This document shows positions 9,080 to 54,896 of a stretch of DNA of 64,000 bases, one piece after another. The notes under the pieces are model-generated. The model had not been told where the DNA came from. It did not search any database and saw only the letters and a program-made list of their open reading frames with translations. The DNA comes from Alcanivorax sp. (lineage in GTDB: Bacteria > Pseudomonadota > Gammaproteobacteria > Pseudomonadales > Alcanivoracaceae), in the NCBI GenBank assembly GCA_022449455.1, contig JAKUPL010000005.1:124001-188000 (forward strand), given 5' to 3'. How positions within the stretch are numbered: the stretch's first letter is position 1; each line of letters begins with the position of its first letter. Position numbers and translations under genes: made by a program.

Positions 9080-10408
9080 ATGGATACTCAATCTCTGTTG
9101 AAACGCATCAAGGAACGGGACCCGCACCACGAGCATTTTCAGCAAGCCGCCCAAAGCCTGCTGAAAAGCATTTCCAGGCCGCTGCGGAAGTACCCGGATC
9201 TCAATGACAACGCCGTCATGGAACGCCTGTTGGAGCCGGAGCGGGTGATTACCTTCCGGGTGCCCTGGATGGATGATCAGGGGCGGCCCCACGTGAACCG
9301 GGGTTTCCGCGTGCAGATGAACGGCGCCCTGGGGCCCTACAAGGGGGGGCTTCGCTTCCATCCGTCGGTGAACCTGGACGTGCTGTCCTTTCTGGCCCTG
9401 GAACAGACCCTCAAGAACGCGCTGACCGGCCTGCCACTGGGTGGCGGCAAGGGCGGCTCGGACTTCGATCCCAAGGGGCGCAGCGACGACGAAATCATGC
9501 GCTTCTGTCAGGCCTTCATGACCGAATTTCACCACCATATGGGCGCCGACACCGATGTGCCCGCCGGCGATATGGGCGTGGGCCCCCGGGAGATCGGCTA
9601 TCTGTTCGGTATGTACCGCAAACTGGGGCGCCGTCACGACGGCGGCTTCACCGGCAAGCAACTCGCCTTCGGCGGCAGCCTGATGCGGGTGGAAGCCACC
9701 GGCTACGGGGTGATTTATTTCCTCGAACACATGCTGGCCAACCAAGGAGAAAGGCTGGACAAAAAAACCGTTGCGATCTCCGGCGCCGGCAACGTGGCGC
9801 GGCACGCCCTGGCGAAAGCGCTGGAAAGTGGCGCCCGCGTGGTCACGCTGTCCGACTCCCAGGGCTTCGTCCACATAAAGAAAGGCTTCACCGACAAACA
9901 CCTGGACGCGGTGGCGGAGATCAAGCAAGGCGGTGGTGCCTTGGGCGATCTGGCGGATCGTTTCAAAGGCGTGCGCTACCACAAGGGACAATCCCCCTGG
10001 GGCGTGGCCTGCGACATTGCCTTGCCCTGCGCCACCCAGAACGAACTGGGCGAGAAGGACGCCCGGGCGCTGGTCAAGAACGGCTGCCAATGGGTGGTCG
10101 AGGGCGCCAACATGCCCTGTTCGTCGGCGGCGGTGAAGGCGCTGCGCGAGGGCGGCGTGACGTTCGGGCCGGGTAAGGCGGCCAACGCCGGTGGCGTGGC
10201 GGTAAGCGGGCTGGAGATGAGCCAGAACAGCCGCCGGGAAAGCTGGTCGGCGGGCGAGGTGGATCAGCGTCTGCGTGAAATCATGGAGCGGGTGCACCGC
10301 CGTTGCCTGGAATACGGCGGCCAGCGCAAAACCGATTACCTGGTGGGGGCGGACATGGCCGGCTATCTGCGGGTGGCGGAAGCCATGGTCGGCCAGGGTA
10401 TCCTCTGA
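9080..10408 (+). CDS. gdhA: NADP-type glutamate dehydrogenase
   Basis: A 442-residue hexameric-type Glu dehydrogenase that aminates 2-oxoglutarate with ammonium. The glutamate/NADP-binding block GPYKGGLRFHP, the catalytic lysine segment LPLGGGKGGSDFDPKG and the Rossmann motif SGAGNVARHA are all present. Length matches bacterial GdhA (~445-450). The ATG follows GTGGAGGG. The gene is monocistronic and ends at a bidirectional terminator shared with the convergent cold-shock gene. Together with the nitrate-responsive locus near the window start it belongs to nitrogen assimilation, though there is no direct linkage. Confidence 0.95.
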   Translation: MDTQSLLKRIKERDPHHEHFQQAAQSLLKSISRPLRKYPDLNDNAVMERLLEPERVITFRVPWMDDQGRPHVNRGFRVQMNGALGPYKGGLRFHPSVNLDVLSFLALEQTLKNALTGLPLGGGKGGSDFDPKGRSDDEIMRFCQAFMTEFHHHMGADTDVPAGDMGVGPREIGYLFGMYRKLGRRHDGGFTGKQLAFGGSLMRVEATGYGVIYFLEHMLANQGERLDKKTVAISGAGNVARHALAKALESGARVVTLSDSQGFVHIKKGFTDKHLDAVAEIKQGGGALGDLADRFKGVRYHKGQSPWGVACDIALPCATQNELGEKDARALVKNGCQWVVEGANMPCSSAAVKALREGGVTFGPGKAANAGGVAVSGLEMSQNSRRESWSAGEVDQRLREIMERVHRRCLEYGGQRKTDYLVGADMAGYLRVAEAMVGQGIL

Positions 10409-41027: not shown

Positions 41028-41697
41028 GTGCAGACGCTGCTGATCGTTGACGACGATGCCGAAATCCGCGCGTTGCTGAAGCGTTTTTTCGTGCAGCAAA
41101 GCTACCGGGTCGAACTGGCCGGTGACGGCGATGGCATGTGGCGCGCCATGGGCCGGAGCACGCCGGATCTGGTGATTCTGGATCTGATGCTGCCCGGCGA
41201 CAGTGGGCTGGACCTGTGCCGCCGGCTGCGGAGCCGTTACCCCACGCCGGTCATCATGGTCACCGCCATGGACCAGTTGAGCGACCGCATCGTCGGCCTG
41301 GAACTGGGCGCCGACGACTATCTGGCCAAACCCTTCGACGCCCGGGAGCTGCTGGCGCGGGTGCGCGCGGTGCTGCGGCGCCGCGCTGGTGTTTTGTGGC
41401 TGGCGCGTGGATCAGACCCGCCGGGAACTGCGTTCGCCGGAGGGCGTCATGGTGCCGCTGTCCAACGGCGAATTCACCCTGCTGACCGTGTTCCTGGAGA
41501 ACCCCCAGCGGGTGCTGACCCGGGAGCAATTGCTGACCCTGGCCCGTGGTCGCGGTCACGACGCTTTTGATCGCAGCATCGACGTGCAGGTCAGCCGGCT
41601 GCGGCGCAAAGTGGAGCGGGACAGCCGCAATCCGGACATCATCCGCACCGTGCGTAACGGCGGTTATCTGTTCGCCTGTACCGTGGAGCGCGGCTGA
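41028..41697 (+). pseudogene. OmpR-family response regulator, frameshifted between receiver and DNA-binding domains
   Basis: From a GTG at 41028 the receiver domain is intact: acidic pocket VDDD, phospho-acceptor Asp52 in LVILDLMLPG, and lysine in DDYLAKPFDA. It continues to VLRRRAGV (~41390). The winged-helix domain (FCGWRVDQTRRELRSPEG, LSNGEFTLL, RTVRNGGYLFA) then resumes in another frame, ending at 41697. The linker is shorter than usual for OmpR regulators, so a small deletion, not only a one-base slip, is likely. As written, the receiver runs into an unrelated tail ending at 41570, so no regulator with its own DNA-binding domain is made. It is adjacent to a sensor kinase that is also damaged. 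Confidence 0.82.
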
Positions 41698-43893: not shown

Positions 43894-46800
43894 TCATCGA
43901 TGGTTGGTGAACTCCACCACTTGCTGGAAAGTGGGCCGGTTCTGCCAGTGAATGCCCGGCACCGACGACAGGCCGATGGCGCGGTGCTGAATGTTGTCCG
44001 CGCTTTCGTCCACGTTCCAGGCGTCCCGGTCGGCCAGGCCGCCCAGGTCGTCCAGGGCCAGGGTCAGGCTTTCGGCCAGGGCGTCGCGGCAGGCGGCGAC
44101 CTGGTCGCTGTCGGCGCAGCGCAGGGCCCGGTACGGGGCCTCGGCGGTGCCCAGGGCCTGTTTCAGCACCCGTTCCAGGTAGCCGTAGTAGCCTTTCTGG
44201 TAGGCGGATCCCATATCGCCGGGTTTGTTGTCACGCTCCATCAGCGACAGGTCGCGGCCGTCCACGTCCTCCATGGCGGTGAGCTGGGGCAACAGCGCCT
44301 CGATCAGGCGCGGGTACCAGGCGTCCATCAGCGCCACCGCCGCTTCCTCGTCGTAGGCGCCGTCGCCGTCCCGGTCCCGCCGGAAGGCGCCGTTGGCGAC
44401 CCAGTCGCGCATCAGCGTCACCACCTCGGCCTGCTCCGGCGTCAGGGCATCGTCCTCCAGGAGATCCAGCGCCCGGGGCAGCACTTCCTGGCCGCGCAGA
44501 TCCACCACCGCCGCGTCACCCATGGCCTCCACCAGATTGGCCAGGGTCACGCCGCCCTGGTCCACCAGGTCGCGCAGCCGCACCTCCAGCATGTCGTTGC
44601 GGTGGGTGGGGCCGTAGCTGGCGTTGGCGTCGGCGGCCCACCAGTCCCGGGCCGGCCGGTTGTTCCAGCTGGCCAGATAGCCGCGCGACGGGTTGGCGTC
44701 GTTGGGGTGGGCTTCCAGGGGCAGGAAGCCGGTCCAGTCGAACTGGCCGTTGCCCCAGCTCGGCAGCTCCGGGTGCACGCCGGCGGCGCGTTGGGGATAC
44801 AGGCCGGAATGGAAGAAGGCGATGTCGCGGTCGTCGATATAGAACCAGTTGAAGCTGCCGGTGGTGAAGTTGAACACCTCCTGGAAGCTGCGCACGTCAT
44901 GAACGTCGTTGCGGGAGGCGAGCATGAACGGCAGGGCGGTATCCAGCTCGGCGAAGTAGGTGCTGCGCTGGCGGGTCAGCGCCACCGGCTGGCCGGCCAC
45001 GGTGGCGAAGCCGATCACCGGGCCGTACTCGGCGGTGCGGATCACCCGCCGGTGCACGGCGAAGTTCTGGCCGATGCTGGCCGGATCGTCGGTGGGCACC
45101 GCCAGATTCCAGCGCGCCGGCCAGTCGTCCTCGATCACGTCGAAGGGCCGGCACTGGCCGCCCACCCGGTAGCCGCCCTCGCCGTGGGCGGGTGCCTCGG
45201 CGGGCTGGCAGCGGGACACCACGCGCACGTCGGTGAGGTCGGAGCTGCCGGAGGTGGCGCTCCAGGCGAAGTCCGGGCCACGCCCGATCACCACGTAGGG
45301 CAGGCCGGTGAAGGTCATGCCACGGGTGTTGATGTCGCCGCCGTGCACCGCCATCTCCAGCAGCAGCTGCGGCACGAAATAACTGGTCTGCGGACCGAAC
45401 ACCGCCAGCGGCCGGCCGCTGGCGCTGTGCTCACCGGTGAGCAGCAGGGCGTTGGAGATGGCGTTGGGGAAGCCGTCGCGCAGGCCGGCGATGCCGGTGG
45501 CCAGTCGCTCCACCCGCTGGCGGATCGCCAGCCGCTGCTGGTCGTCGAGGGCGCCGGGGACCGCCGTCGCCGGCGGCGTGTCGCGGAACAGCTTGTCCGC
45601 CTCGATGCGCACCCGCGCCCAGCGCGCCGCCATCTCGCCGTCGTCCAGGGACGACAGGGACAGCAGGCCGCCGAGCAGTTCGCCCACCGACTCCAGCAGG
45701 CCGCCGACCACGCCGGTGCCGGGCAGCGCCGGCAGATTGCCGGTGGCGGTGGGGCACTGGGCCTGGCCGGGCCGCCCGCAGGGTTCGGTGGTCAGCGGCC
45801 GGTAATCCTGATAGCTGCCGGCGTCGAACAGCACGGCGCCGGGGAAGCGGCCGGCCAATTCACCGGACAACGGGCACAGCTCTTCGTCGATGGCCGGCGG
45901 CGACTGTGTGGCGAACGAACGGTCGGTGGTGACCGTGGAATCCGGGTCGGTGGCGTGGCGCAGGTCGCGCCACAGGTCGCAGGCCGCCTGATCGGAGCCG
46001 GTTTCCTCCCGCAGTGCCTGCAACAGCAGCACATTGGCCTGCTCATTGCCGCCGCCGCCGGCGAAAATGCCCTGGATCAGGGTGGCGATGGCGACCACGT
46101 CCTCGATCACGAAGGGTTCCAGCTGCACGCCCAGGCCCAGGTATTCGATGGGCGCTTCCAGCAGGCCGCTCCGCACCTTGGTGACGTAGGTGTTGAGGCC
46201 ATCCACGAAATGGGTGGCGTCCTGGTAAATCTGGGCGCCGTCGTCGCCGAAACGGGCCACCGTGTTGGCGATTTGCTCGGTGCGGTCTTCTTCCCGGTAG
46301 GGGGCGTCCAGGGCGATGTCCTGGTCAAAGGAGAAATCCGCCGGGCCCAGGAATCGGGACAGTTCGCCGCGCCCGGCCCGGCGCAGCACGTCGAGCAGGA
46401 ACAGCCGGTCGGCGGCGGTCACGTAGCCCACGCCGAACAGGGCGTCCGCCCGTTGCTCGCCGAAGATGTGCGGCACGCCGAAGTCGTCGCGCTTGATGGT
46501 CACCGTGCGACCGGCGCCCTGCACGGTGATCTCGCTTTCCCAACCGCCGGCGTCCGGCGCGCGCAGCGGCGCCGCCTTGAAGTAGCCGCTCAGGTCGTTG
46601 TCGGTGAGCCCCTCGGGGCTGCGCACCAGGGCATCGTACAGCCCCAGCTGGTCGTCGAAGTGGGGTTCCTTGCTGAGCGCCGGCACCAGGCCGGTTTCCG
46701 CCACCAGATCATCCAGCACGCCGCTGATCAGATCGGAAAGGCCGGGGATATCCGCCGCCAGGTTGCTGAGGCCGCCGTTATCGTCCTGGCCGGGGGGCAG

Positions 46801-47016
46801 GATATTGAGCACCCGGCCGTAATCGGCGTAGGGCGCCGTCACCGCCGCCGGCCGGTCTTGCGGCAGGGCGGGTTCCTCCGGTTCTTCCGGCTGCTCCGGT
46901 TCCTGGGGGGTGGGGTCGTTGCCCGGGGCCGGGTCGCCCCCGCCTCCGCCGCCACCGCCACAGGCGGTGAGCACGCCCACCAGCATCAGACCGAACAGCA
47001 CATTCGCGCATTTCAT
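43894..47016 (-). CDS. Penicillin acylase-family lipoprotein (Ntn hydrolase)
   Basis: 1040 residues. ATG 47016 follows GGAGG and opens a lipoprotein signal (VLFGLMLVGVLTAC) with a polyglycine/proline-glutamate linker after the lipobox Cys. An S45 peptidase domain follows. The alpha-chain part contains VTIKRDDFGVPHIFGEQRADALFG; the autocatalytic beta-chain serine is Ser521 in AISNALLLTGEHSASGRPL. Such enzymes self-process and hydrolyse amides: beta-lactams, acyl-homoserine lactones (PvdQ/QuiP type) or N-acyl amino acids. It is longer than typical AHL acylases (~780-850), with inserted segments before the serine. Divergent from alkB. Confidence 0.85.
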   Translation of the reverse strand: MKCANVLFGLMLVGVLTACGGGGGGGGDPAPGNDPTPQEPEQPEEPEEPALPQDRPAAVTAPYADYGRVLNILPPGQDDNGGLSNLAADIPGLSDLISGVLDDLVAETGLVPALSKEPHFDDQLGLYDALVRSPEGLTDNDLSGYFKAAPLRAPDAGGWESEITVQGAGRTVTIKRDDFGVPHIFGEQRADALFGVGYVTAADRLFLLDVLRRAGRGELSRFLGPADFSFDQDIALDAPYREEDRTEQIANTVARFGDDGAQIYQDATHFVDGLNTYVTKVRSGLLEAPIEYLGLGVQLEPFVIEDVVAIATLIQGIFAGGGGNEQANVLLLQALREETGSDQAACDLWRDLRHATDPDSTVTTDRSFATQSPPAIDEELCPLSGELAGRFPGAVLFDAGSYQDYRPLTTEPCGRPGQAQCPTATGNLPALPGTGVVGGLLESVGELLGGLLSLSSLDDGEMAARWARVRIEADKLFRDTPPATAVPGALDDQQRLAIRQRVERLATGIAGLRDGFPNAISNALLLTGEHSASGRPLAVFGPQTSYFVPQLLLEMAVHGGDINTRGMTFTGLPYVVIGRGPDFAWSATSGSSDLTDVRVVSRCQPAEAPAHGEGGYRVGGQCRPFDVIEDDWPARWNLAVPTDDPASIGQNFAVHRRVIRTAEYGPVIGFATVAGQPVALTRQRSTYFAELDTALPFMLASRNDVHDVRSFQEVFNFTTGSFNWFYIDDRDIAFFHSGLYPQRAAGVHPELPSWGNGQFDWTGFLPLEAHPNDANPSRGYLASWNNRPARDWWAADANASYGPTHRNDMLEVRLRDLVDQGGVTLANLVEAMGDAAVVDLRGQEVLPRALDLLEDDALTPEQAEVVTLMRDWVANGAFRRDRDGDGAYDEEAAVALMDAWYPRLIEALLPQLTAMEDVDGRDLSLMERDNKPGDMGSAYQKGYYGYLERVLKQALGTAEAPYRALRCADSDQVAACRDALAESLTLALDDLGGLADRDAWNVDESADNIQHRAIGLSSVPGIHWQNRPTFQQVVEFTNHR

Positions 47017-47176: not shown

Positions 47177-47212
47177 ATATTGACATCGGGCAATGTCGAT
47201 ATTGAATATAAA
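47177..47212 (+). promoter_or_regulatory. alkB promoter with MerR-style dyad and long spacer
   Basis: ATATTGACAT (47177-47186), CGGGCA, ATGTCGATAT (47193-47202): 10-bp inverted arms with one mismatch. The left arm contains a consensus -35 TTGACA (47180-47185), and the best -10 (TATAAA, 47207-47212) is 21 bp away, longer than the 17-bp optimum. An operator inside an overlong spacer is the hallmark of MerR-activated promoters, and a MerR-family gene lies just downstream of alkB. Confidence 0.6.
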
Positions 47213-47239: not shown

Positions 47240-48397
47240 ATGAAAACCGCGACCCTCAACGACCCACACCTGGACTGGCGGGACAGCCGCCGTTATTGGT
47301 GGCTGCTGAGCCTGCTCACCATGCTGCTGCCGGTGGGCGCCATTCAGTTGGCGACGCAGACCGGCTGGCCGCTGATGTGGTGGTTCGGCTTTCTGTTCGT
47401 GTTCGGCGTGATCCCCCTGTTCGACGTGCTGCTGGGCGAAGAGACCGCCAACCCGCCGGAGGAGCGGGTGGCCGACCTGGAGGCGGACCGCTACTACCGC
47501 TGGGCGGTGTATCTGTCGGTGCCGCTGCTCTACGGCGCCTTCCTCTACGCCGCCTGGGTGGCGGCCACCGGCGGGCTGCCCTGGTACAGCTATCTGGGGC
47601 TGGCGATCTCCACCGGCTGCGCCACCGGCATCGCCATCAACACCGGCCATGAGCTGGGCCACAAACCGGACCCGGTGGAAAAGTGGCTCGCCAAGCTGGC
47701 GCTGGCGCCGGTGTTCTACGGCCATTTCTTCGTGGAGCACAATCGCGGCCACCACGTGCGCGTTTCCACGCCGGAGGACCCGGCCTCCTCCCGCTTCGGC
47801 GAGACGTTCTGGGCGTTCCTGCCGCGCACCGTGGTCGGCAGCCTGCGCTCGGCCTGGCGGCTGGAGAAACAGCGCCTGGAACGGCGCGGTGAATCGGTGT
47901 GGAGCTTCAATAACGACAACCTCCAGGCGTGGGGCCTGTCGGTGTTGCTGTGGGGCGGGCTGGTGGTCTGGCTGGGCTGGGCGGTGTTGCCGTTCCTGGT
48001 GATCCAGAGCCTGTTCGGCCTGCAGCTGTTGGAAGTGGTCAACTATCTGGAGCACTACGGCCTGCGCCGGGAGGTCAAGGCCAACGGTCGCTACGAGCGC
48101 TGCCGGCCGGAGCATTCCTGGAACTCCAACCGCCGCGTCACCAATATTTTTCTCTATCAGTTGCAGCGGCACTCCGACCACCACGCCTACCCGACGCGCA
48201 GCTATCAGTCCCTGCGCCACTTCGACGAATCGCCGCAGCTGCCCGGCGGTTACGCCTCCATGATTCTGCTGGCGTGGATTCCGCCGCTGTGGTTCCGGGT
48301 GATGAATCCGCGGGTGGCGGCCCATTATCACGGTGATATGAGCCGCGCCAATATCAAACCGGAGCTGGAAGAAGAGGTGATCGCGCGGGGACGATAG
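47240..48397 (+). CDS. alkB: Alkane 1-monooxygenase AlkB
   Basis: 385 residues. Integral-membrane diiron hydroxylase with all histidine boxes: HELGHK (137-142), EHNRGHH (166-172), NYLEHYG and LQRHSDHH (308-315), with about six transmembrane helices. It inserts oxygen at the terminal carbon of medium-chain n-alkanes, taking electrons from rubredoxin and rubredoxin reductase, which are not in this window. ATG 47240 follows GAGGAG; the frame is open further upstream but that region is promoter. A MerR regulator gene converges on it 6 bp away, then an epoxide-hydrolase/SDR fusion. Confidence 0.96.
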   Translation: MKTATLNDPHLDWRDSRRYWWLLSLLTMLLPVGAIQLATQTGWPLMWWFGFLFVFGVIPLFDVLLGEETANPPEERVADLEADRYYRWAVYLSVPLLYGAFLYAAWVAATGGLPWYSYLGLAISTGCATGIAINTGHELGHKPDPVEKWLAKLALAPVFYGHFFVEHNRGHHVRVSTPEDPASSRFGETFWAFLPRTVVGSLRSAWRLEKQRLERRGESVWSFNNDNLQAWGLSVLLWGGLVVWLGWAVLPFLVIQSLFGLQLLEVVNYLEHYGLRREVKANGRYERCRPEHSWNSNRRVTNIFLYQLQRHSDHHAYPTRSYQSLRHFDESPQLPGGYASMILLAWIPPLWFRVMNPRVAAHYHGDMSRANIKPELEEEVIARGR

Positions 48398-48403
48398 CGG
48401 AGG

Positions 48404-49285
48404 TCAGAGCTGCTTCTGTTCCAGGTGGTCGAGCACGTTTTCGAGCCGGTCCACCAGCACCTTGTTGATGCTCTTTTCCAGCACCCGGCCCAGCTCGTCG
48501 TTGACCACCGCCTCGGCGAGCGGGCGGATGCGGGTAATGAATTCCGCCAGCCGCGCCACATCGTCGCCTTCCGGCAGACTGTTGGGGCCGTACTTCTCGT
48601 CCACCAGATGCTCGACGATCATGTCGATGAAGCGCTCGGCCAGCTTGTCCACCTCGCCGCGCACCAGCCGCACATGGGTGAGCACCGCGTCCAGGGGCAC
48701 GCCGTTTTCCACCAGCTCCTTGCCGGCGTTGTAGATGCGCGGGTAGGGCACCCGCAGACGAGTGCCCTCGGGGATGATGTAGCCCAGGGTCACCGCCTTG
48801 GTCATCACTTCCGGGGTGATGTCCTCGCCAAAATCGTCGATCAGATCCTGGTAGTCCAGGTAGGACGGCACGCTGGGGTTCTGCCAGGAGGTGACCGCCA
48901 CCTCCAGGCCGAGAATGTCGTTCAGGTCGCGGCCCTGTTCCCAGGCGCTGAGCAGGTCGCGGATGTTGTTGAGGGTGTAGCCGCGCTCCAGCAGGGCGCC
49001 GATGATCTTCAGCCGCGCCAGGTGCACGTCGGTGTAGATGCCGGTGCGGCCGCGCTTTTCCGGCGGCGGCAGCAGGCCCCGGTCCTGGTAGGCACGCACG
49101 TTGCGCACCGTCGAGCCGGCCTCGCGGGCCAGCTTGTCGATGGTGAACTCCTGACGCGCCTGCAGGGCCCGGTCCAGCTCGGGGGCGTCGGGGGCGTTCT
49201 GGGTCAGGCGGCGCAGCAGCGCCGCCGGGGATTTGCGGGAAGCACTCATGTCGGAATCATAGTCCGGTTCGTCTTCACGCGCCAT
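48404..49285 (-). CDS. MerR-family transcriptional regulator, candidate regulator of alkB
   Basis: 293 residues. The MerR winged helix-turn-helix (FTIDKLAREAGSTVRNVRAY, DRGLLPPPEKRGRTGIY) begins near residue 47 after a disordered start. A coiled-coil and a ~170-residue C-terminal domain of unknown ligand specificity follow, longer than in metal-sensing MerR proteins, so a small-organic-effector type is likely. An in-frame ATG at 49249 is an alternative start. It ends 6 bp from alkB (convergent) and begins 13 bp after the hydrolase/SDR fusion, so is probably co-transcribed with it. Role in alkane sensing is inferred from position and the alkB dyad. Confidence 0.82.
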   Translation of the reverse strand: MAREDEPDYDSDMSASRKSPAALLRRLTQNAPDAPELDRALQARQEFTIDKLAREAGSTVRNVRAYQDRGLLPPPEKRGRTGIYTDVHLARLKIIGALLERGYTLNNIRDLLSAWEQGRDLNDILGLEVAVTSWQNPSVPSYLDYQDLIDDFGEDITPEVMTKAVTLGYIIPEGTRLRVPYPRIYNAGKELVENGVPLDAVLTHVRLVRGEVDKLAERFIDMIVEHLVDEKYGPNSLPEGDDVARLAEFITRIRPLAEAVVNDELGRVLEKSINKVLVDRLENVLDHLEQKQL

Positions 49286-49298
49286 GCGCGGCGCTCGC

Positions 49299-51035
49299 TC
49301 AGGGCGTCACGTCCAGCCGTGCCAGGCGCCGCGCCAGCGGCGGCGCCAGCCGGCCCAGCCAGCGCATGCCGCGGGCCTCCACGCTCACCGGCACCTCGGC
49401 CCGATTGTCCCGCACCGCGCCGACGATGGCCCGGGCCACCCGGTCCGGGGTGAAGCCGCGCCGGTGATAGAGGCGCTGCGCCGCCGCCCGACGCCGGTTC
49501 TGCTCGTCCTCGTCCACGCCCACGAAGCGGGCCCGGCCGGTGATCGGCGTATCGATCAGCCCCGGGCAGATCGCCGAGACCCCGATGCCCTGGTCGGCCA
49601 GTTCCGCGCGCAGGCACTCGGTGAGCATCAGCACCGCGGACTTGCTGGTGGCGTAGGCGGGCAGCGCCCGGGACGGCAGGTAGGCGGACGCCGAGGATAC
49701 ATTGACGATGTGGCCGGCCTTGACCTGATCGATCATCTGCCGGGCGAACAGCCGGCAGCCATGGATCACGCCCCACAGGTTCACGTCCAGTACCTGCTTC
49801 CAGTCCTGCACGCTGGTGTCCAGCAACGGGCCGGCCAGGCCGATGCCGGCGTTGTTGACCACCACGTCCGGAGCGCCCAGTTCCTTGTCCAGATAGCGGG
49901 CCAGGGCCTCCATGGAGCGGGCGTTGGCCACGTCGGTCTTGCGGCTCAGGGCGTCGCCGCCGGCGGCGCGCACCGCCTCGGCGGTGGCGGTCGCGGACGC
50001 CGGGTCGATGTCGGTGCACAGCACGGTGGCGCCACGGGCGCCGAACGCCAGGGCGGTCTCCCGGCCGATGCCGGAGCCGGCGCCGGTGATCACCACCAGC
50101 TTGCCGGCGTCCGGGCCGGCATCGGGGCGCACCCGGGCGCGGGCCAGTCGCGGCGTTTCCGGGCCCCCTTCGAGGTGATCGATGAACTCACGGAGATAAT
50201 CGGCGGTGACGGCGGCGTGGCCCAGCAACGGGCCCCAATGGCCGGTGTTCATCTCCCGGCGCCACAGGGCGTCGGTCCACTGCTCCAGACCGTCCAGCAG
50301 GCCCGGACCCACGTAGCGGTCGCGGCTGGCCACGATCACCTGCACCGGAATGGCGGTGCGCCGAAGGCGAGGCTGCAGCAGGCGCGGTACGATGTTGGCG
50401 CGATACAGGGCCACGCCCTGGGCGCCGTCGCGGCTCTGGGTGGCGCTGGGGGCCACCCGCAGCCCTTCGGTGCGCCGCAGCATGGACGGCCAGGCGTCGC
50501 CCAGGCCCAGCTTCCAGGCCAGGGGGGCCAGGCCGGGCAGATGAAAGGCGCCGATGTACCAGCTCTTCGCCAACTGCCGCAGGCTGGCGGTCAGTTCGCC
50601 GGCGCCGTGGCCGCGCAGGGATTGCCCCACGTGATCCAGGCACGGCCCGGAGAGGGTGGTGTAGGAGGCGATGCGCCGTTCGGCGCCGGGCTCCGTGACC
50701 GGCTCCCAGCTCTGGATCGAGCCCCAGTCGTGGGCCACCAGGTGCACCGGCCGGTCCGGGCTGAGCGCGTCGATCACCGCGAACAGGTCATCGCGCAGTT
50801 CCGCCAGCCGGTAGGCGGCCAGGGCGGTGGGCGCCGAGGAGGCGCCGGCGCCGCGTACGTCGTAGGTGATCACCTGATAGCCGTCGCCGAGGGCGTCGGC
50901 CAGACCGTCCCAGACTTCGCCATGGTCCGGGTAGCCGTGCACGCACAGCACCGTGGGGGCGTTCGGGTCGCCGCGGCGACGGGTGGCCAGGTTGACGCCT
51001 TCGCGGACCACGGTGCGGTGTTGCCACTGGTTCAT
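49299..51035 (-). CDS. Epoxide hydrolase-like alpha/beta hydrolase fused to SDR
   Basis: About 578 residues. The N-terminal alpha/beta hydrolase (~1-300) has the oxyanion block VHGYPDHGEVW and a nucleophile elbow VAHDWGS with Asp103, as in epoxide hydrolases and dehalogenases, not the usual Ser. From ~315 a complete SDR follows: GAGSGIGRE, VNNAGIGLAG, NVSSASAYL and catalytic YATSK. No frameshift separates the halves. ATG 51035 is chosen; starts at 51065 and 51095 are possible. It should hydrolyse an epoxide (or ester) and oxidise or reduce an alcohol/ketone in one polypeptide. It is in one transcript with the MerR gene beside alkB. The 297 bp upstream (to 51332) holds only a 6-3-6 hairpin at 51282-51296. 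Confidence 0.85.
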   Translation of the reverse strand: MNQWQHRTVVREGVNLATRRRGDPNAPTVLCVHGYPDHGEVWDGLADALGDGYQVITYDVRGAGASSAPTALAAYRLAELRDDLFAVIDALSPDRPVHLVAHDWGSIQSWEPVTEPGAERRIASYTTLSGPCLDHVGQSLRGHGAGELTASLRQLAKSWYIGAFHLPGLAPLAWKLGLGDAWPSMLRRTEGLRVAPSATQSRDGAQGVALYRANIVPRLLQPRLRRTAIPVQVIVASRDRYVGPGLLDGLEQWTDALWRREMNTGHWGPLLGHAAVTADYLREFIDHLEGGPETPRLARARVRPDAGPDAGKLVVITGAGSGIGRETALAFGARGATVLCTDIDPASATATAEAVRAAGGDALSRKTDVANARSMEALARYLDKELGAPDVVVNNAGIGLAGPLLDTSVQDWKQVLDVNLWGVIHGCRLFARQMIDQVKAGHIVNVSSASAYLPSRALPAYATSKSAVLMLTECLRAELADQGIGVSAICPGLIDTPITGRARFVGVDEDEQNRRRAAAQRLYHRRGFTPDRVARAIVGAVRDNRAEVPVSVEARGMRWLGRLAPPLARRLARLDVTP

Positions 51036-51332
51036 GAAAAGCCCTCTGCCGATTTGCCGGGACATTATTGTGCGCGCTGGCCGGCGAACCACCATTCGCC
51101 CCGGCGCCCGCCGGGTTCCGTGAAGAAGCCATTGGTCACTGTCAATTTTGCGCTTTTTTACGCCACGACGGCGGCGTCATTACCGTCGGTATGTTCTTGT
51201 TATGCAGGGTGTTGGCCGGTGGAGTCCGGGGCTGTCTTGCCGTAGTCTTCACCCGTTAATCTCGCGCTCCTGATTAGGGTGCGCGGCATCGCCGCGTCTG
51301 GATGGCGTGATGGATAAAGAAAGGAGGGTAGA

Positions 51333-53962: not shown

Positions 53963-54805
53963 TCAGGCCGCCTTCTTCAGGGCGTCACCCAACAGCGCTT
54001 CGAATTGTTCCAGGTATTCCCGGTTGTCGTGGTCCCAGGGGTGGAATCCGGGCTTGAACCAGTCCAGCCAGGCCTTGGCGGTGTAGCGGAAAATGCCCTT
54101 GCGGCCCAGGCTGTGGCGCCATACCGCGCGCCAGCCCTGGCGGTCGAACAGGCCGCCGCTGACCCGCACGTTGTGCAGGTAGAAAGGCAGGAACAGGGCG
54201 AAGAACACGCTGGTGGAGAGCACCAGGGCGAAGCAGCGCAGCGCGTAGGCGGAGGCCTGGTCGTCGCTACCCACCGCCAGCTGATAGACGTCGAAGGCCA
54301 CCGCCTTGTGCTCGGTCTCCTCCAGGGCGTGCCAGTTCCACAGCGCCTTGTAGTCATCGTCGGCGCCTTCCAGGATCTCCGGCAGGCTCAGCAGACCGTC
54401 GGCAAGAATCGCGGTGAGGTGCTCCAGGGCCACGGTGCCGGACAACTGGAAAGCCTTGGGCGTGGTCTTCTGGATGCGCGCCAGCAGCGCGGCCACGATT
54501 TTTTCCTGGGCGGCCACCGGCACCCCCGCCTGGTCCACGAATTCGTTGTACTCTTCGTGCTCGCGGCCGTGCATGGCCTCCTGACCGATGAACGCGGTCA
54601 CCGCCGCTTTCAGGTCCGGATCCTGGACGAGGTCGCGATAGTGACGCACGCTGTCGATGAAGAAGCGTTCGCCCACCGGAAAGAACAGGCTCAGAGTGTT
54701 CAGGAACTGGCTCACGTTGCGCCCGTCCCGGTGCCAGGACAGGGCCTTGTCGGCGTTCAGATTGAAACGCAGATTACGGCGCGTGGGCAGAATGTTGATC
54801 GCCAT
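53963..54805 (-). CDS. Predicted metal-dependent hydrolase (PF10118 type, diiron-like helical protein)
   Basis: 280 residues, all-helical. Ferritin-like metal ligands appear in order: GQEAMHGREHEEYN (~73-86), VALEHLTAIL (~124) and HALEETEHKAVAFDVYQ (~158-175). A single hydrophobic stretch lies near 190-210. The family has no well-defined reaction; a diiron oxidase or hydrolase on lipids is plausible given the motifs and host. It diverges from an unknown gene, sharing a 91-bp promoter region. Confidence 0.8.
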   Translation of the reverse strand: MAINILPTRRNLRFNLNADKALSWHRDGRNVSQFLNTLSLFFPVGERFFIDSVRHYRDLVQDPDLKAAVTAFIGQEAMHGREHEEYNEFVDQAGVPVAAQEKIVAALLARIQKTTPKAFQLSGTVALEHLTAILADGLLSLPEILEGADDDYKALWNWHALEETEHKAVAFDVYQLAVGSDDQASAYALRCFALVLSTSVFFALFLPFYLHNVRVSGGLFDRQGWRAVWRHSLGRKGIFRYTAKAWLDWFKPGFHPWDHDNREYLEQFEALLGDALKKAA

Positions 54806-54896
54806 GGCGATGTACCTCTGATGATTGTTACATTGACCGATGATACATTCTGCCCGCCGAACGCGGTTGGCTTTACAGGAAGGAACGGATGTCGTG

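Follow-up and report, generated by a model that had tools for sequence, protein, structure and literature searches.

A 26-bp palindromic motif at the alkB1 promoter of an Alcanivorax sp., a predicted operator associated with a neighbouring MerR-family regulator gene

In the Alcanivoracaceae, which are classic marine oil degraders, a 26-bp palindrome with the consensus AnnGTKACATTGnnCAATGTMACnnT recurs shortly before genes. Starting from the copy at positions 47177-47202 of the window (the whole stretch of 64 kb that was analysed), we established computationally what the motif is, how widely it occurs, how it is associated with merR genes and which genes are its candidate targets. On balance, we favour the view that this copy is the operator of the MerR-family protein encoded next to alkB1, which is likely to act as a repressor of alkB1 and other genes and would be released by a metabolic product.

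The operator and promoter of alkB1

The window contains the following features of interest:

43894-47016, divergent from alkB1: penicillin amidase-family protein of 1040 aa (PF01804)
47177-47202, no strand assigned: predicted 26-bp palindromic operator of alkB1 (28.3 bits; among the 26 sites of the matrix)
47180-47185, plus strand: TTGACA, likely -35 box, within the left operator arm (same in 10 of 10 orthologous promoters)
47204-47209, plus strand: GAATAT, candidate -10 box at a spacing of 18 bp (GATNAT here in 8 of 10 orthologues)
47207-47212, plus strand: TATAAA, 21 bp from TTGACA, the -10 box of an earlier sequence-only reading (2 of 10 promoters, this genome and G002)
47240-48397, plus strand: alkB, AlkB1-type alkane monooxygenase of 385 aa (PF00487, E 9.5e-34)
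48404-49285, minus strand: merR, MerR-family regulator of 293 aa, convergent with alkB (PF13411, E 4.2e-20)
49299-51095, minus strand: fusion of an alpha/beta hydrolase with an SDR (NCBIfam PRK05855), upstream of merR at a distance of 13 bp
51123-51148, minus strand: second predicted operator copy, before sdr-merR (17.7 bits, marginal, 3 mismatches)
53963-54805, minus strand: PF10118 'predicted metal-dependent hydrolase' (E 1.1e-83)
54824-54849, minus strand: third predicted operator copy, 18 bp from the PF10118 ATG (25.3 bits)

The product of alkB belongs to the AlkB alkane monooxygenases, as it combines the FA_desaturase fold (PF00487) with the boxes HELGHK, EHNRGHH and LQRHSDHH in its translation, which we take to be the hallmark histidine boxes of AlkB. 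The MerR-family gene that the sequence-only reading had seen at the 3' side of alkB is indeed present and runs head-on into it, with only 6 bp (48398-48403) between the reading frames, and the transcripts of the two genes therefore very likely overlap. The same-strand spacing of 13 bp makes it probable that the hydrolase-SDR fusion gene and merR form an operon, and the merR promoter is therefore probably located near 51.1 kb. On its other side, alkB1 could have a control region in common with the divergent amidase gene. Further away, at 41028-41697, a response regulator appears by eye to be split, with its receiver and DNA-binding parts in different frames, ahead of a sensor kinase.

Direct reading verified the presence of a 10-6-10 dyad upstream of alkB (ATATTGACAT cgggca ATGTCGATAT from 47177 to 47202), in which 9 of the 10 arm positions are paired, and a perfect TTGACA and a TATAAA 21 bp apart were found where they had been placed. 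These two hexamers do not enclose the dyad as had been claimed: its left arm contains the -35 box, and the midpoint of the 21-bp spacer is 6.5 bp away from the dyad centre (47189.5). It should be noted that the 10-6-10 dyad is not significant on its own, since the 64-kb window contains 8 such dyads with at least 9 of 10 pairs, and 69 dyads over gaps of 3-10. Likewise, a figure of 0 in 100 shuffles for the dyad is circular, because the search pattern was taken from 47177-47202 itself. What stands above chance at this position is the match to the family-wide motif: at up to 3 mismatches the window has three sites, compared to a shuffle mean of 0.27, and none of 100 shuffles reached three. The matrix gave exactly three matches of at least 8 bits in the window, at 47177, 51123 and 54824, and the latter two copies were outside its training set.

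Among the 12 other genomes of the same genus that were examined, 9 have a close orthologue of alkB1 (80-94%). All ten promoters, including the one in the window, retain TTCATATTGACA together with the A and the T at the dyad ends, with 0 to 4 mismatches against the 18-bp core (the site in G002 is marginal, with 4 mismatches). In all ten genomes merR lies at most about 4.3 kb from alkB1, and in G009 the contig with alkB carries the end of merR only. TTGACA-18-GATNAT is present in eight of these promoters and TATAAA at 21 bp in the other two. This spacing of 18 bp would be plausible for a plain promoter, and with eight dyads of equal quality in the window, the dyad could be a chance AT-rich palindrome at an ordinary sigma-70 promoter, with alkB1 otherwise regulated or unregulated. 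We regard this as very improbable in view of the conservation in all ten orthologous promoters, the three matrix matches within 64 kb at functionally related promoters and the association of the motif with merR outside the family that is described below.

Distribution of the motif in the Alcanivoracaceae

The 20-bp form of the motif, TTKACATTGNNCAATGTMAA, was searched at up to 3 mismatches, with the reversed pattern as control. It was found in all 46 family genomes, with 1-9 sites each versus 0-4 for the control, a few genomes being at control level (e.g. G065 with 2 versus 2). Seven family genomes together had 48 sites versus 4 control sites, while 16 order mates without a MerR match had 71 versus 44. 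At up to 1 mismatch there were 17 sites in the seven family genomes and 2 in 11 of the 16 order mates without a MerR match, this count covering the order mates other than G040, G047, G051, G053 and G055; G043 and G054 were without any site. In the genome of the window, the motif occurs at up to 2 mismatches in two places only, namely before alkB1 and before a gene for an AlmA-like protein, and at up to 3 mismatches the 16 sites versus 8 control sites represent only a twofold excess.

Closer examination of the sites revealed conserved positions outside the search pattern: among 48 oriented rows, 81% have A at -4 and 90% have T at +21. The operator therefore extends to 26 bp, and its ends coincide with the dyad ends given in the sequence-only reading. 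Of 37 neighbourhood sites, 24 were taken into the alignment, whose 48 rows represent 44 distinct sites with four counted in both directions; L186, L187, L189, L201, L205, L208, L209, L210 and L215-L219 were left out because the target was unclear, the site intragenic, the operon unclear or the target a duplicate. As targets were hand-picked near plausible starts, the positions before the ATG are partly selected, whereas the -4 and +21 flanks are unselected.

The motif precedes alkB1 and also alkB2-type genes (in G001, G018, G021, G022 and G025), and it is found in family genomes ahead of flavin monooxygenases of PF00743, which we presume to be AlmA-like. Reading of the neighbourhoods added PF10118 proteins, SDRs, a thiolase, a patatin and a TetR gene adjoining the AlmA-like gene as further targets, and in G013 the motif is located before an M24-like gene that heads the merR operon. 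The 18-bp cores mostly lie 18 to 75 bp ahead of the start codon, and a few starts of AlmA-like or sdr genes are farther away. For the copy at 54824-54849, a Shine-Dalgarno-like AGAGG is situated between the site and the ATG, and L214 and L298 have a similar spacing from site to ATG. A site comparable to the second copy before sdr-merR was detected in G001, G002, G003, G011 and G012, and none was found in the other 7 same-genus genomes. Indeed, 17 of 36 merR regions, including 7 of 13 in same-genus genomes, showed no site at up to 4 mismatches upstream of merR, and self-control by merR is therefore not general.

The same holds for control of alkB by this motif: inspection by eye revealed no such operator in genus g3, where six alkB1-type promoters were read, and in the genome of the window the remaining two alkB genes are without a site at up to 3 mismatches. 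Four of the six g3 promoters (L021, L022, L023 and L027) carry a different dyad directly before alkB, CTGnTTGTAT..AAACnATCAG or near, and a reading frame adjoining alkB in L023 looks TetR-like by eye. For A. hongdengensis, the available part of PMC3664771 reports a tetR gene downstream of alkB1. Perhaps the g3 dyad represents a second, unrelated alkB switch.

Additional repeats were observed at some targets. In L145 (near 9584-9640), L192, L195 and L212, a repeated element resembling TTCGGATTCAATTCGGAT belongs to the tetR gene near the AlmA-like gene and lies downstream of the operator, and a similar stretch is located near a PF10118 gene in L192. In L074, L075 and L086, patatin-type promoters (L075 scanned) have a TTGTCGGACAA-like dyad adjoining the MerR operator, and this dyad is similar to the AlkR/VanR site. 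The PF10118 protein encoded at 53963-54805 contains two E..H pairs (QEAMH and EETEH), resembling di-iron ferritin-like oxygenases, and in L292 an AurF gene (PF11583) takes the place of the PF10118 gene beside merR.

Association of the motif with merR and features of the MerR protein

An orthologue of merR is present in 35 of 36 family genomes, the sole exception being G026, whose genome is 64% complete. Moreover, three genomes of the same genus (G001, G003 and G012) have kept merR in the absence of this alkB. Together, these observations indicate that merR has a role wider than alkB1.

Loci with merR were gathered by protein similarity alone, as the best 80 of at least 533 confirmed relatives. 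The 25 best (L223-L247; 51-99% identity), which are Alcanivoracaceae by name or identity, were excluded, so that the outside test comprised 55 loci of these best 80 of at least 533 (L248-L302; 944 kb). These 55 loci contained 40 sites with up to 3 mismatches versus 4 control sites, and 19 of the 40 were located less than 400 bp from merR, where 1.0 was expected and the control had 0. With the matrix built from the 26 Alcanivoracaceae sites, 23 of the 55 outside loci were found to have sites at most 400 bp from merR, 25 in total (1.4 expected). The other 32 of these 55 loci from the best 80 of at least 533 had no site of at least 10 bits near merR, and the outside loci are partly dependent, as they include several from Pseudomonas, Salinisphaera and Actinomadura. 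In MerR-positive genomes outside the family, the numbers of sites and control sites were 11 and 2 for G041, 2 and 0 for G073, 4 and 0 for G091, 4 and 2 for G104, and 1 and 1 for both G178 and G294; none of the 11 sites in G041 lies near merR.

The genes around merR vary between these loci (at the distant loci, gene names were assigned by eye apart from the scanned ones). The site is located before merR in two Actinomadura genomes and one Acidimicrobiaceae genome. In Pseudomonas aeruginosa PA7 it separates merR from an M24 peptidase gene, and it lies ahead of PF10118-like genes in Halospina, Algiphilus and Solimonas and ahead of hydrolase-like genes in Salinisphaera. The genes beside merR in PA7 encode an M24 peptidase, a hydrolase-SDR and a PF10118 protein, and the order in G178 is, by eye, SDR, PF10118, merR and a probable rubredoxin reductase. 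The neighbours of merR elsewhere are thus the same kinds of genes that bear the site in the Alcanivoracaceae. That the neighbours vary while the site stays with merR is the main argument for MerR binding the motif, and judged from these sequences the most promising candidate for binding the 26 bp is the merR product. The MerR link drawn in the sequence-only reading is accordingly strengthened by the clustering of the motif at merR outside the family and by the weaker copy before sdr-merR, but the under-twisted mechanism attached to it is not.

A different regulator, such as the TetR encoded beside the AlmA-like gene, might bind the motif, with MerR as a bystander or a target. Copies of the motif precede that tetR in G012, G025, several other same-genus genomes and, with 3 mismatches, the genome of the window, and relatives of this TetR occur in 44 of 46 family genomes. 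However, G018 and G022 have no match to it and G013 only a weak one (44%), and each of these genomes retains an exact site, which sets this TetR back as the binder. In addition, of the outside sites that were read, ten are upstream of merR at a distance of at most 400 bp, and only the site in L252 faces a gene that looks tetR-like by eye. Binding by another regulator therefore appears improbable to us.

The merR product is a member of the MerR family, with a PF13411 match of 72.1 bits against a cut-off of 21.6 at residues 47-114, and all 35 aligned relatives have this match. Regulators of this family bind palindromic operators as dimers, and the motif associated with merR is a palindrome. Profile and structure matches define the N-terminal domain as a standard MerR winged helix. 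A mercury- or metal-type MerR was rejected, because the highest score among the NCBIfam equivalogs (MerR, CadR-PbrR, CueR, ZntR) was 32.5 bits, far below the cut-off of 150.85. In structural models, the C-terminal half consists of a winged-helix-like unit and long helices (strand-helix-helix-strand-strand-helix followed by two long helices, mean pLDDT 71-75). The second winged-helix-like unit is based on this predicted secondary structure at a mean pLDDT of 71-75, and sequence comparison did not confirm a second MerR winged helix (1.2% in hhalign of residues 44-118 versus 136-215).

The best whole-domain structure match of the C-terminal model was the regulatory domain of the adenylyl cyclase Rv1264 (1y10, 2ev1, 2ev2), which is weak (Foldseek probability 0.63, E 0.43), and its alignment gave a Z of 5.0 over 131 residues with an rmsd of 5.1. 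Sequence profiles do not support this likeness: PF16701 (Ad_Cy_reg) matched 1 of 35 members at E 0.016, the hhalign probability was 2.7% with only 3 sequences on one side, and no match was obtained in 38 relatives, the control genomes likewise being without a match. The genome of L292 has three clear PF16701 members. The regulatory domain of Rv1264 binds oleic acid. As judged from the models, a ligand pocket in the C-terminal half of MerR is possible. The operator in Actinomadura lies between merR and a divergently oriented adenylate/guanylate cyclase gene (L295:8926-9906 scanned, L299 by eye), and the L295 cyclase shows a weak Ad_Cy_reg match.

Proposed mode of action and relation to known systems

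That MerR is the binder, that it represses, and that a ligand exists and what this ligand is, we infer as follows. Two TKACATTG half-sites form the 26-bp palindrome, which the MerR-family protein would bind. In this genome the protein would control alkB1, the AlmA-like flavin monooxygenase gene and the PF10118 gene, and probably also the sdr-merR operon from which it is itself expressed; across the family it may control a wider set of lipid and alkane genes. At alkB1 the bound protein would cover the -35 box and block RNA polymerase, and at other targets it would cover the -10 box or the transcript start. Release would be brought about by a product of alkane or fatty-acid metabolism.

Repression is favoured by the position of the sites. 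At three or more targets the site is too near the start codon for a -10 box to follow, and since a MerR activator must sit between the -35 and -10 boxes, these sites would leave no room for one. Furthermore, the alkB2 gene of G022 has a TTGACA-17-TAGTCT promoter upstream of the site, so that transcription would begin at the site edge. The competing idea, in which MerR activates alkB1 by untwisting an over-long 21-bp spacer like the classical MerR, SoxR and BmrR, is what the sequence-only reading had proposed. It draws on the perfect TTGACA overlapping the dyad, the TATAAA at 21 bp and the MerR-family protein, and activation is common among MerR proteins. Classical MerR activator promoters have the operator centred in a spacer of 19-20 bp between -35 and -10, with the dyad offset from the spacer centre by about 2 bp. 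The -35 box of alkB1 is covered by the operator, the distance between dyad centre and spacer centre is 5 to 6.5 bp, the TATAAA at 21 bp is found in just 2 of 10 orthologues, and the geometry does not suit those targets at which 14-18 bp separate the site from the ATG. The under-twisted layout thus did not hold up, and we consider activation of this type unlikely. From the sequences, repression appears likelier than spacer-twisting activation, and a mixed mode with activation at alkB1 only is conceivable beside it.

The pairing of alkB1 with merR is not new. In the parts of PMC3664771 and PMC9788540 that were available, MerR is the presumed regulator of alkB1 in A. dieselolei B-5, on the basis of adjacency or similarity, and the pair in B-5 is of the same kind as the one described here. 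The available part of a 2013 review (PMC3664771) places the regulator gene of B-5 upstream of alkB1. In the window and in the same-genus genome G005, merR is convergent with alkB1. Small RNAs from both 3' ends that overlap the alkB1 and merR transcripts have been described for B-5 (PMC9788540, in part). An operator, a regulon and a mechanism for the B-5 pair were not found in the available parts of PMC3664771 and PMC9788540, and searches of open-licence literature did not turn up the operator or the regulon described here. The suggestion of a novel MerR-type alkane switch therefore applies to the operator and the regulon, and not to the gene pair with its presumed regulation, which is already known.

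Several known regulators resemble the proposed system in part. The GntR/VanR-type AlkR also has a palindrome in alkane hydroxylase promoters and represses until released by long-chain acyl-CoA, which is like the repression and release proposed here, but it belongs to another protein family and has another site (ATTGTCnnACAAT, compared to ATATTGACATcgggcaATGTCGATAT at alkB1). In B-5, a repressor of almA named AlmR has been reported; it is described with an Ig-like domain and therefore appears to be a different protein from MerR. TnrA and GlnR share the MerR-type winged helix, and the N-terminal domain gave structure matches that include DNA complexes of both. They are MerR-family nitrogen regulators with the site TGTnA...TnACA, which is shorter, and they differ from this MerR in their C-terminus and physiology. 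LiuR, a MerR-family regulator of branched-chain amino acid use, likewise presides over a multi-operon catabolic regulon, with targets different from the alkB1-type set (PMC5343134, in part).

A broader evolutionary scenario is one that we put forward tentatively, as a possibility rather less probable than repression in the Alcanivoracaceae. MerR proteins with a duplicated winged-helix-like architecture might be ancient cross-phylum lipid sensor-repressors with an ancestral regulon of PF10118, hydrolase-SDR and M24 genes, recruited in the Alcanivoracaceae for AlkB1, AlkB2 and AlmA-like genes and possibly responding to a fatty-acid-like ligand through an Rv1264-shaped domain.

For the alkane regulators of the Alcanivoracaceae, Table 1 of PMC3664771, as far as available, lists inducers as untested or evidence by similarity. 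With a 26-bp operator, a named candidate protein and a short list of targets, the statement that a merR gene next to alkB1 may regulate it becomes directly testable. The findings predict one switch common to alkB and AlmA-like genes, and they provide a regulatory context for the PF10118 family, for which no functional study was found in the literature search. The MerR protein with its operator is also a candidate for the sensing element of biosensors for hydrocarbons or lipids.
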